Origin: Dehalogenimonas etheniformans
GTDB taxonomy: Bacteria > Chloroflexota > Dehalococcoidia > Dehalococcoidales > Dehalococcoidaceae
Assembly (NCBI RefSeq): GCF_014672715.2
Contig: NZ_CP058566.2
Coordinates: 868,001 to 932,000 of the forward strand
DNA length: 64,000 nt
Direction of reading: 5' to 3'
Shown: piece after piece, positions 48,982 through 57,391 of the stretch
Layout of the letters: every line of letters starts with the position of its first letter
Numbering within the stretch: the first letter of the stretch is position 1
Notes under the pieces: generated by a model
Seen by the model: only the letters and a program-made list of their open reading frames with translations
Told to the model about the DNA's origin: nothing
Databases searched by the model: none
Position numbers and translations under genes: made by a program

Positions 48982-50016
48982 TCACTGATTATAATTGATT
49001 ACTGCTCGCAAACCCTTGCGTTCAAGGGTGTAATTTATTGCTTCGGCAATGTCTTCAAGGCTGATACGCATGGTTATCAGGTCAGCAACGGTCATTCCCT
49101 GGGAGATCAGCTTCAATGCTGCGGTATTCTGGACTGCGGTTGAGCCGAACGATCCTGTTACTTCCAGTTCTCGGTAGTGTACATGGTTAATATCGAACCA
49201 AACCGAGGACGTTTCTTTACTCAGGCTGGCAAAAAGGGATAAGCGGCCTGCGTCTGCCAGAAGCGGCAGCAAGTTAGCGGTTGATGTTGAATTAGATGAC
49301 AAGATAACTACGTCGACACCACGGCCGCCGGTTTCGTCTCTGATGATTTGTGGCAGCCTCTCTATGCTGGTATCGATGACCCTGTCCGCTCTTCCGTGTT
49401 CACTAGCCAGTTTGAGGCGGTTTTCATCCTTCTCGGCGATGAAAACCCTTTGTGCTCCTCTGAGACGGGAAAGGCGGCTGTGCAACAAGCCCAACGGCCC
49501 GCCGCCTATGATAAGGACGGAATCATCTTGGCCTACTTTTGCCCTTTCCTGGGCATTTAGGCAGCTAGCCAGCGGTTCGGCCATTGCGGCCTCTTCATCA
49601 GTGACATTTTCCGGGACCAGATTAACTCCGCCGGTAGTAACCGCTGTCGCTGGTAACGCGAGGTATTCTGCAAACCCACCATCCTCGGAAAACCCAAGTG
49701 TTTTTAGTGCAATGCATCGCCGGGTTTCTCCTCTGCGGCAAGCTGAACAACGCCCACAGCTGATACCCGGATAGATTTGGACTCTATCTCCAGGTTTATA
49801 TAATTCGCTTTGGCTCTCATCAATTACACCGGACAGTTCGTGCCCGAGGATCCTTGGATAGACCAATCCGGAGTGGCCATTAATTACCATTCTGGCGTCC
49901 GAAGAACATATTGAGCAGCTCGATACCTTAACCAAAACCCCGCCGGAAGGGCATGCTGGCATTTCGACTTGGCCCAAAACAAGTTGTTTCGGTGTTTCGA
50001 GTATTGCTGCTCTCAT
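48982..50016 (-). CDS. zinc-dependent medium-chain dehydrogenase
   Basis: A 344-residue MDR-family dehydrogenase of the threonine/sorbitol type. Catalytic zinc residues lie in CSICSSDARM and ILGHELSG; the structural zinc site is CGRCSACRRGETRRC; the dinucleotide loop is IIGGGPLGLLHSR. Substrate unknown. As first gene behind the cobalamin riboswitch it may act on an aminopropanol or threonine-related compound of the nucleotide loop, but this is a guess from context. ATG 50016 is chosen over a TTG seven codons earlier that lies within the terminator tract. Confidence 0.82.
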   Translation of the reverse strand: MRAAILETPKQLVLGQVEMPACPSGGVLVKVSSCSICSSDARMVINGHSGLVYPRILGHELSGVIDESQSELYKPGDRVQIYPGISCGRCSACRRGETRRCIALKTLGFSEDGGFAEYLALPATAVTTGGVNLVPENVTDEEAAMAEPLASCLNAQERAKVGQDDSVLIIGGGPLGLLHSRLSRLRGAQRVFIAEKDENRLKLASEHGRADRVIDTSIERLPQIIRDETGGRGVDVVILSSNSTSTANLLPLLADAGRLSLFASLSKETSSVWFDINHVHYRELEVTGSFGSTAVQNTAALKLISQGMTVADLITMRISLEDIAEAINYTLERKGLRAVINYNQ

Positions 50017-50037
50017 GAGAACACTCGCATAAAACAA

Positions 50038-50107: not shown

Positions 50108-50132
50108 ACCATTTCCCGAACCCTTCCTCGAG

Positions 50133-50305
50133 GGCTTATAACTACGGCAGGTCTTCTGGCTTCTGGCTCCAACCTACTCACGGCGCCTTCCCATCTTCTA
50201 TTTAAAGATAGTGGCTATGTTGCCGTTTTCGTCACCAGTTACAGCGGCGGGACCGCATCCGACTTGCGCGGAACTTCCCAATTAAGCTCTTGCGAGCGCC
50301 GTAAC
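50133..50305 (-). promoter_or_regulatory. cobalamin riboswitch of the dehydrogenase-cobTSCU operon
   Basis: Conserved elements of the adenosylcobalamin riboswitch occur in order on the minus strand: TTACGGCGCTC stem, GGGAAGTTCC, GCGGTCCCGCCGCTGTAAC, AGCCACTA, GATGGGAAGGCGCC, AGCCAGAAGACCTGCC. It is followed by two intrinsic terminators, so bound cobamide should stop transcription before the operon. Confidence 0.93.
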
Positions 50306-50324
50306 CCTTATTCAATTGTTTCTA

Positions 50325-53124: not shown

Positions 53125-53943
53125 TTATGATCCCTGGATGGCACACGGTTCGCCTCCATTGATATTGCTGACCTTAGGCAGCACCGCAGGTAGTCCACTC
53201 AGTGGGTGAGTGTGAACATAACTGCCCGGACCGTATACGTTGCAGATGTTTTCGGTCGTAATGACGTCACGAGGAGTCCCGAAAGCATATAATTCGCCGT
53301 TCTTGATGAGAACCAGTTTTTCGCAATAATGGGCCGCTAGATTGAGGTCATGGATCGCTGCGATAATTGTCAAATGCCGGTTGGTGCACTCTTCTTTCAA
53401 CAGATCAAGTACTTCTATCTGTCGTCCGATGTCCAGGTTAGCCGTTGGTTCGTCGAGCAATATGCCTTCGGTTTCTTGCGCCAGAGCTCGAGCGATAACC
53501 ACGCTCTGGATTTCACCGCCTGATAACTCTGAGATGTGTCTATCCGCAAATTGCTGTACCCCGCATCGCTCCATAGCCTCCCATGCGATATCGATATCCT
53601 TTTTGCTTTCGTATTTGAACATTCCCAGGTGCGGATTACGCCCCATCAGAACAATTTCAAAAGCCGTGAAGGCACTTGGCAAAACTGGAGTCTGGGGCAC
53701 GACGCTGATGGTTTTGGCCAATTCCTTGAACGACAAGTGCGCAATGTCATGACCATTGGTGAGTACTCGCCCCCTTTTAGGAGTCAACACATGGCACAGG
53801 GCTTTGATGATGGTCGACTTTCCCGATCCATTGGGACCGACTAAACCGACCATTTCGCCCGGGATAGCGGTAAAAGTCATGTTACGCACGACGTCTTTGC
53901 TTCCGTACGCAAGGGTTATGTTCTCCATCTCGAGGGTTAACAT
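53125..53943 (-). CDS. btuD: corrinoid ABC transporter ATPase
   Basis: A 272-residue FecE/BtuD-type ATPase. Walker A VGPNGSGKSTIIKAL, Q loop VPQTPVLPS, signature LSGGEIQSVVIARAL and Walker B GILLDEPTANLDIG are intact. ATG 53943 overlaps the btuC stop (TAATG), so the two are translationally coupled. The upstream open frame over btuC is not coding. Confidence 0.94.
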   Translation of the reverse strand: MLTLEMENITLAYGSKDVVRNMTFTAIPGEMVGLVGPNGSGKSTIIKALCHVLTPKRGRVLTNGHDIAHLSFKELAKTISVVPQTPVLPSAFTAFEIVLMGRNPHLGMFKYESKKDIDIAWEAMERCGVQQFADRHISELSGGEIQSVVIARALAQETEGILLDEPTANLDIGRQIEVLDLLKEECTNRHLTIIAAIHDLNLAAHYCEKLVLIKNGELYAFGTPRDVITTENICNVYGPGSYVHTHPLSGLPAVLPKVSNINGGEPCAIQGS

Positions 53944-55028
53944 TAAAATAGCACCTTGGTCTTCTTTCGCAGAAGATACATGAAAAATGGAGCTCCGCAC
54001 AAAGCAGTGATAATACCGATAGGGATTTCGGATGAACCAATGCTCCGGGACAAGATGTCTGCTCCTATCAGGAAAATCGCCCCGACCAGAGCTGATAAAG
54101 GCAACAGGAACCGGTAATCGGCGCCCCAAATCAACCTTACTGCATGAGGGATAATGATACCCACAAAACCTATGATACCCACGAACGACACGGCGGCGGC
54201 GGTTATGATCGTCGAAACGGTCAGAAGCATTAATTTCAATTTTTCAATATTGACGCCGAGTTGTTTCGCCTGGTCTTCGCCAAGTTGGATTATGTTCAGA
54301 GAACGGGCAAAAAGGAAGATGAAACCGCTACCCAGTAAGATCACCGGCAGGGCAATTTCAACATCTGTCCACTGCGCCGATGAAAAGCTGCCCATCATCC
54401 AGAAGACAATACCTCGGATCTTATCGCCGCTGATTGTGATGACGAAGTTCACTAACGCCATAAGTAACGACCCTACCGCCACACCGCCCAGAATAAGCGT
54501 GGTAACAGGAATCGAAGATCCTACTTTGGCGATGCTGTAAACCACCAATACCGTGAGGATAGCTCCCAGGGCTGCGAATACCGGGATAATGCTAAATGCT
54601 TCGTTATGGAATGTGATTGGTAGGATAAAACCGATTGCAGCTCCCAATGCCGCCCCTTGCGCCACACCAATAAGGTAAGGATCTGCCAATGGATTTCGGA
54701 ACAGTCCTTGGTAAGTTGCGCCCGCGACTGATAAAGCTATACCCACCGCGCCAGCTAATACTACCCTCGGTAACCTGATCTGCGTGATGATCGTTTCCAT
54801 CGGATCAGACCACGTATGATCAATGTTGACCAACGGCAACTTATCGAGGATTATGCCTAGAGTGGAACTGAAAGGGACGCTGACACTGCCGATGGTGGTA
54901 GCAAATGCTGCCAGGAGTAGTAAACCTAAAAATAACAAACCCATCGTCATAAAACGAGTATGCCACTTGACTGCCAGCAAAGGTGCAGCTTTTTTTGTTT
55001 TAAATTCGGTCAGCGTATCAGTTACCAT
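53943..55028 (-). CDS. btuC: corrinoid ABC transporter permease
   Basis: A 361-residue FecCD/BtuC permease with about ten membrane helices. Conserved RLPRVVLAGAVGIALSVAGATYQGLFRNPLADPYLIG is visible in part (RLPRVVLAG, NPLADPYLIGVAQGA) as is GFVGIIIPHAVRLIWGADYR near the C-terminus, the coupling-helix region. Corrinoid rather than iron-siderophore specificity is inferred from the cobalamin riboswitches and neighbours. Confidence 0.93.
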   Translation of the reverse strand: MVTDTLTEFKTKKAAPLLAVKWHTRFMTMGLLFLGLLLLAAFATTIGSVSVPFSSTLGIILDKLPLVNIDHTWSDPMETIITQIRLPRVVLAGAVGIALSVAGATYQGLFRNPLADPYLIGVAQGAALGAAIGFILPITFHNEAFSIIPVFAALGAILTVLVVYSIAKVGSSIPVTTLILGGVAVGSLLMALVNFVITISGDKIRGIVFWMMGSFSSAQWTDVEIALPVILLGSGFIFLFARSLNIIQLGEDQAKQLGVNIEKLKLMLLTVSTIITAAAVSFVGIIGFVGIIIPHAVRLIWGADYRFLLPLSALVGAIFLIGADILSRSIGSSEIPIGIITALCGAPFFMYLLRKKTKVLF

Positions 55029-55077: not shown

Positions 55078-56076
55078 TTATTTCAACCCGAATTCAGGAT
55101 GAATTACCTGAGCCATGGCGACTAGGCCGTCTGCCAGGCGGGGTCCCATTCTCTGTAAGATATTCCCGTCGATATCGAACACCTTGGTATTTTTTATTGC
55201 ATTGATACTTTTTAGTTGGGGATTATTCAGCATTTGATCCCTGGCTGAACCGGAAGTTCCCATACTGCTGGTAATTATTATGTCAGGATTGGCAGCGACT
55301 AGATCTTCAATAGACATAGTTGGGTATCCAGTTGAATTCGGAGAAATGCTGACTCCGCCTGCCAGAACAATCAGTTGGTATTGTGGCGTGTCGGTCCCGA
55401 CTGTCATCGATGGTGGATAAAGTACATATAGAACCTTCGGTCTCTGAGCGGTTGTGAGAGTTTGTGTTTTTGAGGTCACCGAATTGATCTTAGCCTGTAA
55501 CGCGGCGACTTCTTCGGTTGCTTGTTTGAGGTGATCGGTGATCTTTCCGACAAGGATAATGGCATCCATTATGTCCTGCAAGTTACGGGGATCAAGCGTA
55601 AATATCGCCGTATTAGGAAGCAAGGTTTTCAGTTGGGGCACGACTTTAGCTACGTGAATATTTGAAGTCAGGATTAAATCAGGTTGAGCATTGATAACCA
55701 ATTCAGTATTGACGTCGGAAAAGCCGCCCATCTTGGATTTGGTAGTTGCTGCCGCGGGATAATCACAATAAGTTGTGTCACCTATAATATTCGCATCTAA
55801 GCCAATCGAAAAAGCAATTTCAGTATTGCCAGGCGACAAGGAGACTATTTTTGTAGCTGGTTTGGTAAATATGAAAGATTGGCCTGTTTGATCCTTGACA
55901 GTCAGCGGGAATGTTACCGTGTAGTTGGTAGTTACGGGGGGCGTTGTTGTAGGAGTAGTTGTATTATCGACAGAATTTCCGCAGCCTGGCAACAATCCCA
56001 GGACCATTATTGAAGCTAACAGCAACGATACGGTTACCAGTTTCGGAATAGAACTTTTCCTTATTAAACTATTCAT
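55078..56076 (-). CDS. btuF: corrinoid-binding lipoprotein
   Basis: A 332-residue substrate-binding protein. A signal peptide (SLLLASIMVLGLLPGC) ends in a lipobox with the lipidated cysteine, followed by a Thr/Pro-rich linker (TTTPTTTPPVTT) and a BtuF/FepB-type fold (KIVSLSPGNTEIAFSIGLD, GDTTYCDYP, VNTELVINAQPDLIL). ATG 56076 has AGGA nine bases upstream; a TTG three codons earlier is less likely. Membrane-anchored on the outer face, it delivers corrinoid to BtuCD. First gene behind the tandem riboswitches. Confidence 0.92.
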   Translation of the reverse strand: MNSLIRKSSIPKLVTVSLLLASIMVLGLLPGCGNSVDNTTTPTTTPPVTTNYTVTFPLTVKDQTGQSFIFTKPATKIVSLSPGNTEIAFSIGLDANIIGDTTYCDYPAAATTKSKMGGFSDVNTELVINAQPDLILTSNIHVAKVVPQLKTLLPNTAIFTLDPRNLQDIMDAIILVGKITDHLKQATEEVAALQAKINSVTSKTQTLTTAQRPKVLYVLYPPSMTVGTDTPQYQLIVLAGGVSISPNSTGYPTMSIEDLVAANPDIIITSSMGTSGSARDQMLNNPQLKSINAIKNTKVFDIDGNILQRMGPRLADGLVAMAQVIHPEFGLK

Positions 56077-56130: not shown

Positions 56131-56148
56131 TCAACTTGTATTACACAT
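56131..56148 (-). CDS. possible five-codon leader ORF after riboswitch copy 2
   Basis: ATG TGT AAT ACA AGT TGA directly follows a strong GGAGGTG (56154-56160) that can pair with CTCC nine bases upstream of it in a CTCCGCGGATAAGGAG hairpin. The peptide itself is probably unimportant; translation of the leader could serve as the sensor step. Could be an accidental ORF. Confidence 0.35.
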   Translation of the reverse strand: MCNTS

Positions 56149-56179
56149 GCGCCCACCTCCTTATCCGCGGAGAAGATAC

Positions 56180-56285
56180 TTGACCGGAGCCGGGGTTCTG
56201 ACTCTCCCAAGGAGATTGGGATTACAGCAGGCGGAACTGTACCGGACTTTCACCGGACTTGCACCCGTTCACCTGTTAAACCGGT
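56180..56285 (-). promoter_or_regulatory. cobalamin riboswitch, btuF-proximal copy
   Basis: On the minus strand: ACGGGTGCAAGTCCGGTG, AAAGTCCGGTACAG, CCGCCTGCTGTAATCCC and GGGAGAGTCAGAACCCC. These are the conserved core of the compact cobalamin riboswitch form. It shares 43 and 27 base identical blocks with the distal copy 216 bases away. Followed by an SD-sequestering hairpin rather than a terminator. Confidence 0.88.
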
Positions 56286-56315
56286 TACTCTGGTTCGGAA
56301 AGAGTCAATTTATTC

Positions 56316-56366
56316 CTAAAAAAGAAACCTCCAGTCCCTTGCGGTTAGGAGGTTAGTGCTTACCAA
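56316..56366 (-). CDS. possible 16-codon leader ORF across the riboswitch terminator
   Basis: TTG start (56366) five bases after AAGGAG (56372-56377), encoding MVSTNLLTARDWRFLF, with the stop TAG just at the end of the terminator T run. The start sits at the same place relative to the riboswitch as the five-codon ORF of the other copy. Ribosomes on it would melt the terminator. Not verified; could be chance. Confidence 0.35.
   Translation of the reverse strand: MVSTNLLTARDWRFLF
56317..56354 (-). terminator. intrinsic terminator between the two riboswitches
   Basis: On the minus strand AACCTCC (56354-56348) pairs with GGAGGTT (56332-56326), 15-base loop, followed by TCTTTTTT. It forms the expression platform of the distal riboswitch copy. 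Confidence 0.85.
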
Positions 56367-56399
56367 CGGCGCTCCTTATACCGCGGAGACCTAGTTACC

Positions 56400-56510
56400 T
56401 TAAGGCTGGGGTTCTGACTCTCCCAAGGAGATTGGGATTACAGCAGGCGGTACTGTGCCGGACTTTCACCGGACTTGCACCCGTAGCTTGTAAAACAAGC
56501 TGACTTAAGT
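56400..56510 (-). promoter_or_regulatory. cobalamin riboswitch, promoter-proximal copy
   Basis: The same core as the other copy (ACGGGTGCAAGTCCGGTG through GAGTCAGAACCCC), preceded by a small AGCTTGT-TTT-ACAAGCT hairpin. First element transcribed from the promoter at 56533-56561, followed by CTCCGCGGTATAAGGAG and the terminator. Confidence 0.9.
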
Positions 56511-56532
56511 TGGCTAATATCTAATTGATTAT

Positions 56533-56561
56533 ATAATACGGCAGTCGTTGGAACGTGTCAA
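56533..56561 (-). promoter_or_regulatory. sigma-70 promoter of the btuFCD-cbiZ-cbiB-cobD operon
   Basis: On the minus strand a consensus TTGACA (56561-56556) and TATTAT (56538-56533), 17 bp apart. The leader to btuF is about 450 bases and contains both riboswitches. Confidence 0.82.
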
Positions 56562-56588: not shown

Positions 56589-57332
56589 TTAGAAAATGCG
56601 AACTGCTTTATCCCCCACCCGCTTCATATCCAATGTAAGAATAGTCACCTTATTCATGTATTTCTTTGCCAGTTCGGCAGCATGTTCAACTTCCTGGTTG
56701 CTGGCAGGTCGCCAAGGGCATTCCGGCACAGGGAAATAAGCATCGATACGGAACGGAATATTTGGATCGATCGAACCAACGAACTTGGCCACCTTTTCGA
56801 TCTCTTCGGCTTCGATGAGTTCGGGGATTAACACCACCTCGGCGTGGAGGTTCTTGCCCATTTTGGCAATCTCGGCGAAATGTTTGAGGGCTGGTTTGTT
56901 CGATCTCCCGGTGTACTTGCGGTAAATATCCTCGGATACAGCCTTGATGCTGAATATTACCTGGTCAACATCAGTCAAATCAGGCATGACGATTCCATTT
57001 GTTAGGAGAATGTTATAAGCATGCCATTTCTCATGCAGCTCTTTCGTCAGACGCGGAAATTCAGGATCTAACGCCGCCTCTGTTCCCATAAAGACGGCAT
57101 ATTTGATCTCCAAAGGCTTGAGGAGTTCTATTACCTTATTGTAGGATAAAAACTTATCTGGGGGAGTTGTGCGCTCTCTGGTCATGATTTCAGTTGTAGC
57201 ATCGTCGTACAGGCTGAAATCGTATAGCTCCCAATTGGTATAGCAAGCCTGGCAATCGAGTGTGCACTTGGTCCAGATATGGATGTCGACCGATCCGTAT
57301 GACGGTTCGTAAGCGATGTGATAGACCTTCAA
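56589..57332 (-). CDS. small radical SAM protein
   Basis: A 247-residue radical SAM protein. The cluster motif is CTLDCQAC (CxxxCxxC) about residue 25, in the context SVDIHIWTKCTLDCQACY; YAVFMGTEAALDPEFPRL is the glycine-rich SAM region and LLTNG a later strand. The length fits a bare partial barrel without auxiliary cluster domain, like activating enzymes. TTG 57332 is the start: GGAGGG lies seven bases upstream and the promoter at 57362-57391 excludes the longer frame. Substrate unknown; it sits between corrinoid uptake and the hydrogenase genes. Confidence 0.85.
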   Translation of the reverse strand: MKVYHIAYEPSYGSVDIHIWTKCTLDCQACYTNWELYDFSLYDDATTEIMTRERTTPPDKFLSYNKVIELLKPLEIKYAVFMGTEAALDPEFPRLTKELHEKWHAYNILLTNGIVMPDLTDVDQVIFSIKAVSEDIYRKYTGRSNKPALKHFAEIAKMGKNLHAEVVLIPELIEAEEIEKVAKFVGSIDPNIPFRIDAYFPVPECPWRPASNQEVEHAAELAKKYMNKVTILTLDMKRVGDKAVRIF

Positions 57333-57361
57333 ATTTGTCCCTCCGGATTTTGTAACGGTCA

Positions 57362-57391
57362 AGTATACACTCGTTTACGGGTTAACGGCAA
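57362..57391 (-). promoter_or_regulatory. promoter of the radical SAM gene
   Basis: On the minus strand TTGCCG (57391-57386) and TATACT (57367-57362), 18 bp apart, placing the start about 20 bases before the TTG codon. Confidence 0.6.

Follow-up and report, generated by a model that had tools for sequence, protein, structure and literature searches.

In the window, by which we mean the whole 64,000-nucleotide stretch of DNA analyzed here, two cobalamin riboswitch copies stand in tandem on the minus strand ahead of a set of corrinoid genes, assigned by profile searches, that follow in the order btuF, btuC, btuD, cbiZ, cbiB, and a cobD-like gene. Both copies lie behind a single consensus promoter, as the original prediction had stated, and the promoter spacing in the congener G002 is similar to that of the window. 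The coordinates of the individual features are collected in Table 1. Upstream of the tandem lies a gene for a radical SAM protein (56589–57362). The window holds one further cobalamin riboswitch (50129–50318, 93.9 bits), which is of class-I length, unlike both tandem copies, and precedes a zinc-dependent alcohol-dehydrogenase-like gene (48982–50037), an odd-looking first gene for a B12 riboswitch.

Table 1. Features of the tandem riboswitch leader and the btu genes behind it (positions in the window)
Feature	Position	Strand	Basis or remark
Promoter TTGACA-17-TATTAT, sigma-70-type	56533..56561	(-)	11/12 consensus matches
Cobalamin aptamer copy 1, class-II type, without P8–P12 extension	56387..56522	(-)	RF00174 27.2 bits, E 8e-5 (cut-off 31.5 bits; 901-base search)
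L5 of copy 1, ACCGC	56447..56451	(-)	Complementary to L13 GCGGU; CCGC/GCGG core invariant in aligned sequences
P13/L13 of copy 1, CTCC-GCGGTATAA-GGAG	56372..56388	(-)	Sequence; position conserved across the order
16-codon TTG frame across the terminator, TTG at 56366, TAG ending at 56316, probably not functional	56316..56366	(-)	Stop not conserved in G002; no sister-genus equivalent
Intrinsic terminator AACCTCC...GGAGGTT plus T run	56318..56354	(-)	Fold with P13 held
Antiterminator partner CTCCT-AACCGC	56341..56351	(-)	Pairs with P13 3′ strand and L13; its ACCGC copies L5
Cobalamin aptamer copy 2, class-II type	56171..56307	(-)	RF00174 31.1 bits, E 6e-6 (cut-off 31.5 bits; 901-base search)
L5 of copy 2, TCCGC	56231..56235	(-)	Complementary to copy 2 L13 GCGGA
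P13/L13 of copy 2	56156..56172	(-)	3′ strand GGAGG is the uORF Shine-Dalgarno sequence
Five-codon uORF ATG TGT AAT ACA AGT TGA (MCNTS*), ATG at 56148, TGA ending at 56131	56131..56148	(-)	Five codons in 7/7 family btuF leaders
btuF, corrinoid ABC substrate-binding lipoprotein	55078..56076	(-)	Pfam PF01497 6e-31; BtuF NF002894 6e-22, under its cut-off
btuC, permease	53943..55028	(-)	PF01032 1e-90; BtuC NF007081 2e-96, under its cut-off
btuD, ATPase	53125..54129	(-)	PF00005 3e-32; corrinoid ATPase NF007082 4e-76, under its cut-off; coordinates count from an upstream TTG, true start further inside

Two class-II cobalamin aptamers in tandem

The two copies share an 80-nt direct repeat, 96% identical and displaced by 216 nt, which contains the 27- and 43-base identical blocks noted in the original prediction. 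Its assignment of both copies to the cobalamin riboswitches was borne out by a covariance-model search, although both scores fall just below the Rfam RF00174 gathering cut-off. Several copies of close relatives pass this cut-off with 35–46 bits, and by homology we treat both copies of the window as divergent RF00174 members. A model built from relatives scored both copies above 155 bits, by construction, since both were among its training sequences. The B12 box, the P4–P6 core, and the L5–L13 kissing-loop complementarity are present in the copies; the core columns are invariant in 43 aligned sequences, and L5 CCGC and L13 GCGG occur in every one of them. A candidate compensatory change between the copies in the outer L5–L13 pair was rejected, as the outer pair of copy 2 in G002 is A/A and only CCGC/GCGG is invariant.

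Both copies belong to class II and not class I, with 62 model positions spanned by 10 bases between the P6 arms. They resemble class-II cobalamin riboswitches (RF00174) in their aptamer core, B12 box, P13/L13 kissing loop, and location upstream of btuF/btuC/cbiB, while differing from them in their score just under the Rfam cut-off, their cobalamin–cobalamin tandem, and the presence of an upstream open reading frame (uORF) in the expression platform. Behind each aptamer stands CTCCGCGG(T)ATAAGGAG, which the original prediction had read as a dedicated Shine-Dalgarno hairpin; the sequence is indeed present in both copies, but it is the standard P13/L13 hairpin of cobalamin riboswitches.

The tandem is kept in the congener G002, in all three sister-genus genomes that were searched, and in another family as well (G071/G072), where it arose independently or ancestrally. 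This distribution agrees with the proposal that the two copies form successive gates before btuF. G001 and G006 retain only the second switch. Gene content and neighbors point to a Dehalogenimonas-like member of the Dehalococcoidia for the window and to a Dehalococcoides-like sister genus. The whole tandem region is present twice in G002 (G002:C1:838666-839039 and 867990-868363) and twice in G008 (G008:C1:599142-599521 and 630153-630532). In these two genomes, which belong to different genera, the duplicates lie approximately 29–31 kb apart, a case of repeated duplication of the btu region.

Terminator and antiterminator of the first copy

Folded without constraint, copy 1 is predicted to form an antiterminator (apo minimum free energy of −24.1 kcal/mol), whereas with P13/L13 held the predicted structure consists of P13 and a terminator (−18.8), with AACCUCC/GGAGGUU forming instead. 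In the antiterminator helix, the complete P13 sequence pairs with the 5′ arm and loop of the terminator through GUCUCC/GGGAC, GCGGU/ACCGC, and AAGGAG/CUCCU. Since the L5 sequence ACCGC recurs in the terminator loop, L13 can pick either L5 (ligand bound) or the terminator loop (ligand free). G002 retains the GCGGU/ACCGC and AAGGAG/CUCCU pairings, and its fold displays the same switch, such that terminator and antiterminator are predicted to be mutually exclusive in both genomes. A simple terminator scan returned no hit in the window region, because the 15-nt loop of the copy 1 terminator is too long for it. The two alternative folds explain switching without translation, and given the strength of the base-paired antiterminator, copy 1 most likely works as a conventional transcriptional OFF switch, as judged from the modeled structures.

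Folding of the sister-genus first copies found no antiterminator. In these copies (L035/L037/L032), the terminator is predicted to be stable in both folds, and a conserved additional hairpin, AGTCATTT...AAATGGCT, lies between P13 and the terminator.

A five-codon reading frame behind the second copy and its relatives

The five-codon uORF of copy 2 uses as its Shine-Dalgarno sequence the GGAGG of the P13 3′ strand, which is contained within the L13 hairpin. Each of the seven btuF leaders of the family carries this uORF, always with five codons, encoding MCNTS* in the window and G002, MFNTE* in G001, MFDAK* in G006, and MQKNL* in G008–G010. Differences within the MCNTS and MQKNL uORFs are synonymous (AGT/AGC, AAG/AAA, AAT/AAC), and all seven leaders have 52–58 nt between the uORF stop and the start of btuF. 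No terminator was found behind the copy 2 uORF of the window, which therefore lacks the stop-beside-terminator layout that the majority of btuF/cbiB leaders in the order display. A decayed terminator was sought behind the second copies of the sister genus; in G010, copy 2 can be aligned to the terminator of its first copy (CTTTGCCCGATG vs CTTTGTCCGATG), while no convincing alignment was obtained for G008 and G009. The possibility that a ribosome on the copy 2 uORF unmasks the btuF ribosome site was also considered and rejected, as no consistent change was observed when the seven leaders were folded.

With a model trained on the family copies, relatives were found in 84 of the 156 genomes of the order (Dehalococcoidales), and 89 distinct P13 sites were read. 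ATG/GTG frames behind the P13 Shine-Dalgarno sequence comprise exactly five codons in 38 of 52 leaders, compared with 2.1 ± 1.4 such frames in dinucleotide shuffles of the same 52 (maximum of 6 in 300) and 0–6 when the reading point was shifted by −7 to +7 nt; as the sequences are related, these counts are not independent events, and the weight lies on the family spread, the frame controls, and the btuC controls. The five-codon length was observed in 35 of 54 btuF leaders (with three or four codons in 7) and in both cbiB leaders that have a start codon. The btuC leaders, which carry the same aptamer kind, are a natural control for uORF length, and none of 24 has an ORF shorter than 16 codons. 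Spacing between the Shine-Dalgarno sequence and the ATG/GTG is 6–9 nt across the order, mostly 6–7 nt; start codons interchange between ATG and GTG, and stop codons vary among TGA, TAA, and TAG. By our own tally, 16 families have the five-codon form, in which about 30 different pentapeptides are encoded; it is thus the length and not the sequence that is conserved within the order. The sequence comparison indicates that copy 2 has a genuine five-codon ATG frame and that this frame is widespread. Of the two mini-ORFs originally proposed, both located correctly, the ATG frame exceeds chance and the TTG frame of copy 1 does not.

An ATG frame behind P13 crosses the terminator in L069 and L131 and stays open for ~125 codons; it is possibly fused in frame to btuF, which would amount to translation through the terminator into the gene. 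A further short cobalamin-riboswitch subtype was also noted (L003, L004, L041, located at 361, 247, and 365 kb of the window's own genome, as well as L018, L020, L043, L044, and L050). It often carries a strong CCCCCTCC terminator and precedes CbiZ homologs or radical SAM genes related to that at 56589–57362, and L004 adjoins a reductive-dehalogenase-like gene.

In 35 leaders of the order with a short uORF, the gap between the stop and the first base of an intrinsic terminator stem was mostly −4 to 6 nt; a weak stem in the window was regarded as spurious and left out of this count. Three-codon ORFs have a shorter distance between the Shine-Dalgarno sequence and the stem, so that most of them still end ≤10 nt from the stem. 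In E. coli, a ribosome almost fully represses a terminator located a few base pairs past the stop codon, and the terminator recovers full activity once the distance exceeds 30 bp (PMC4824070).

In the rest of the class, five-codon ORFs encoding MTRAP*, VTRAP*, and MTRAL* were found in family f82, three-codon ORFs in f57, and none in f51. The five-codon length recurs across the wider phylum, in 20 of 36 frames behind P13, and here the consensus reads M-x-[R/N/C]-A-P-stop. Codons 4 and 5 hardly vary at their first two positions but vary freely at the third, which points to selection on the peptide and hence to translation. The DNA pattern of a Shine-Dalgarno sequence followed by M-x-x-A-P-stop gave 12 matches over 350 genomes, 11 of them directly behind an RF00174 riboswitch above the cut-off, compared with a single match for the reversed control pattern. 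M-x-[R/N]-A-P-stop leaders are L272, L274, L286, L287, L303, L305, L306, L308, L315, L323, L331, L332–L340, L342, and L343. When these distant leaders were folded, almost all placed the terminator T run 54–62 nt beyond the stop, and the steric model suggested by the order therefore does not carry over directly. In L332–L334 and L342, the P13 5′ strand CCTTCTCG is complementary to a stretch in the downstream terminator (CGAGAAGG or TGAGAAGG), a possible antiterminator. In other phyla, no five-codon ORF was found behind P13 in 12 readable cobalamin riboswitches from 7 genomes.

The uORFs MPRAP* and MTRAP* of several distant relatives share their R-A-P end with the RAP(P/G) arrest peptides ApdA, ApdP, and ApcA and with SecM (PMC10951233, PMC12992588). 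Unlike ApdA/ApdP/ApcA, they consist of five codons only and present a stop codon in place of the A-site Pro/Gly, and in the N-A-P variants the Arg essential to ApdA/ApdP is missing (PMC10951233, PMC12992588). By this analogy, it is possible that the M-x-[R/N]-A-P-stop ORF encodes an ultra-short arrest or slow-termination peptide. The RAP motif is absent from the window uORF MCNTS* and occurs only in relatives outside the order.

Proposed mechanism, alternatives and precedents

We consider it probable that the leader of btuFCD comprises two serial cobalamin OFF switches, with copy 1 acting on transcription and copy 2 on translation initiation of the uORF. In copy 1, the P13 hairpin sequence would, without corrinoid, pair with the 5′ arm and loop of the terminator as an antiterminator; with corrinoid, the L13–L5 kissing interaction would form together with P13, and the terminator would fold. 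In copy 2, P13 would conceal the GGAGG of the five-codon uORF when corrinoid is present, while without corrinoid the uORF would be translated by ribosomes. In most relatives with a single switch, where the uORF stop adjoins an intrinsic terminator, the terminating ribosome most likely covers the 5′ arm of the terminator and RNA polymerase passes, such that transcription would be controlled by the riboswitch via the ribosome. Since copy 2 has no terminator and copy 1 no uORF, the two functions seem to be divided between the copies in the family of the window, with the terminator in copy 1 and the uORF in copy 2. The effect of the copy 2 uORF on btuF might then be exerted through Rho, which is encoded in the genome, or through mRNA stability.

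It is unlikely, in our estimate, that both mini-ORFs are accidental and that P13 acts by RNA pairing alone, with the GGAGG strand alternating between the P13 5′ strand and the terminator 5′ arm and btuF being simply termination-controlled. Direct pairing between the P13 strand and the terminator may suffice in btuF leaders as in btuC leaders, which share the P13–terminator layout without an ORF; the strong antiterminator of copy 1 and the btuF leaders of family f51, which keep GGGGGTGGGA without a start codon, likewise fit such a scheme. Set against it are the register specificity of the five-codon length, the exchanges of start and stop codons together with the synonymous third positions in the A-P codons, and the persistence of the ORF in the family's copy 2 although the terminator is gone. 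Very improbable is the notion that what has been conserved is not the ORF but a small hairpin (CATG...CATGA or CTCAG...CTGAG) located between P13 and the terminator, whose fixed size would produce the ORF as a by-product. About half of the distinct five-codon frames do form a start–stop stem of 5–7 bp, reaching −6.6 kcal/mol, and this stem, which counts against the reading of two serial switches, is possibly itself selected. Many frames nonetheless keep five codons without a stable stem (MIKVR, MTKVE, MSNSL, MCNTS of G002, MTRAP of L240), and those that bear the hairpin vary in loop size by multiples of three (three codons in L129, four in L089, typically five).

The original prediction, that copy 1 may govern a TTG leader ORF and that a ribosome translating it would open the terminator, now appears highly doubtful. 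The TTG does lie 5–6 nt behind GGAG in the window and in G002, and long frames cross the terminator in some other first copies (G071, G072, G008, G010). When the starts and frames of related btuF leaders are compared, the five-codon ATG frame is kept but the stop of the TTG frame is not: G002 retains the TTG, 1 nt further from the Shine-Dalgarno sequence, and reads through 28 codons, in place of 16, into the second aptamer. The sister-genus first copies have no counterpart of this frame, with ATG GCT TAA in G009, a GTG frame in G008, and a 29-codon frame in G010. Furthermore, the start codon is weak and its spacing short, the TTGGTAAGC stretch belongs to the antiterminator helix, which suffices by base pairing, and seventeen stop-free codons are not unusual by chance. 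The copy 1 TTG frame is thus probably incidental. The underlying idea, that a riboswitch decides whether ribosomes can reach a leader ORF next to a terminator, is well supported by sequence conservation for the relatives of copy 2 with their five-codon ORF, and not for copy 1.

A riboswitch acting through a leader peptide had been put forward as new, but translated uORFs under B12 riboswitch control have already been described for ppe2 and metE of M. tuberculosis (Kipkorir 2024, PMC11260477). Like copy 2, ppe2 has a compact class-II-like B12 riboswitch in which the L13/Shine-Dalgarno hairpin gates the uORF, and its downstream gene requires uORF translation (PMC11260477). In ppe2, uPPE2 is long and is coupled by an AUGA overlap and re-initiation, whereas here the uORF has five codons, ends 52–58 nt before btuF, and adjoins an intrinsic terminator in relatives. 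The pe20 Mbox of M. tuberculosis controls a small uORF with Rho-dependent termination (PMC12810186) and is similar in that a riboswitch regulates a conserved uORF translationally and thereby influences transcription termination; it differs in sensing Mg2+, in its Rho dependence, and in its longer uORF, compared with intrinsic terminators and a fixed length of five codons here. Ribosome-mediated attenuation, as in the pyrBI and trp leaders and in terminator repression near a stop codon (PMC4824070), likewise employs a ribosome at a leader ORF to suppress an adjoining intrinsic terminator, but the signal proposed here would be ligand-gated initiation via a riboswitch and not codon-specific stalling or nucleotide-dependent pausing of RNA polymerase. 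In the open-access literature searched, we found nothing on tandem cobalamin–cobalamin riboswitches and no five-codon uORFs in cobalamin riboswitches, the uORF work being confined to Mycobacterium. The principle is therefore known. The same open-access literature yielded no example of the fixed five-codon length, of a stop abutting the terminator, of the Ala-Pro-stop variant, or of a tandem with divided functions.

More tentatively, and with somewhat less than even confidence, we extend the scheme to the phylum (Chloroflexota): the ligand would gate ribosome loading, and a ribosome at the fifth codon or stop, possibly held by Ala-Pro-stop or Arg-Ala-Pro-stop in many lineages, would decide whether the terminator or P13 folds. 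If true, the antiterminator would be gated by the ligand and operated by the ribosome, and its regulatory, possibly arresting, peptide would perhaps be the shortest known. The conserved Ala-Pro-stop ending, if it slows termination, would represent a five-residue regulatory peptide. "Transcriptional" and "translational" riboswitch platforms would then be two ends of one mechanism, with the ribosome as relay. The strict five-codon rule in many leaders would also be explained, in ORFs that annotation ignores because they are far too short to call. With one ligand, one 18-nt ORF, and one terminator, such leaders would offer a clean test system for transcription–translation coupling. The arrangement would also bear on the tuning of btuFCD in organohalide respirers that rely on scavenged corrinoids.
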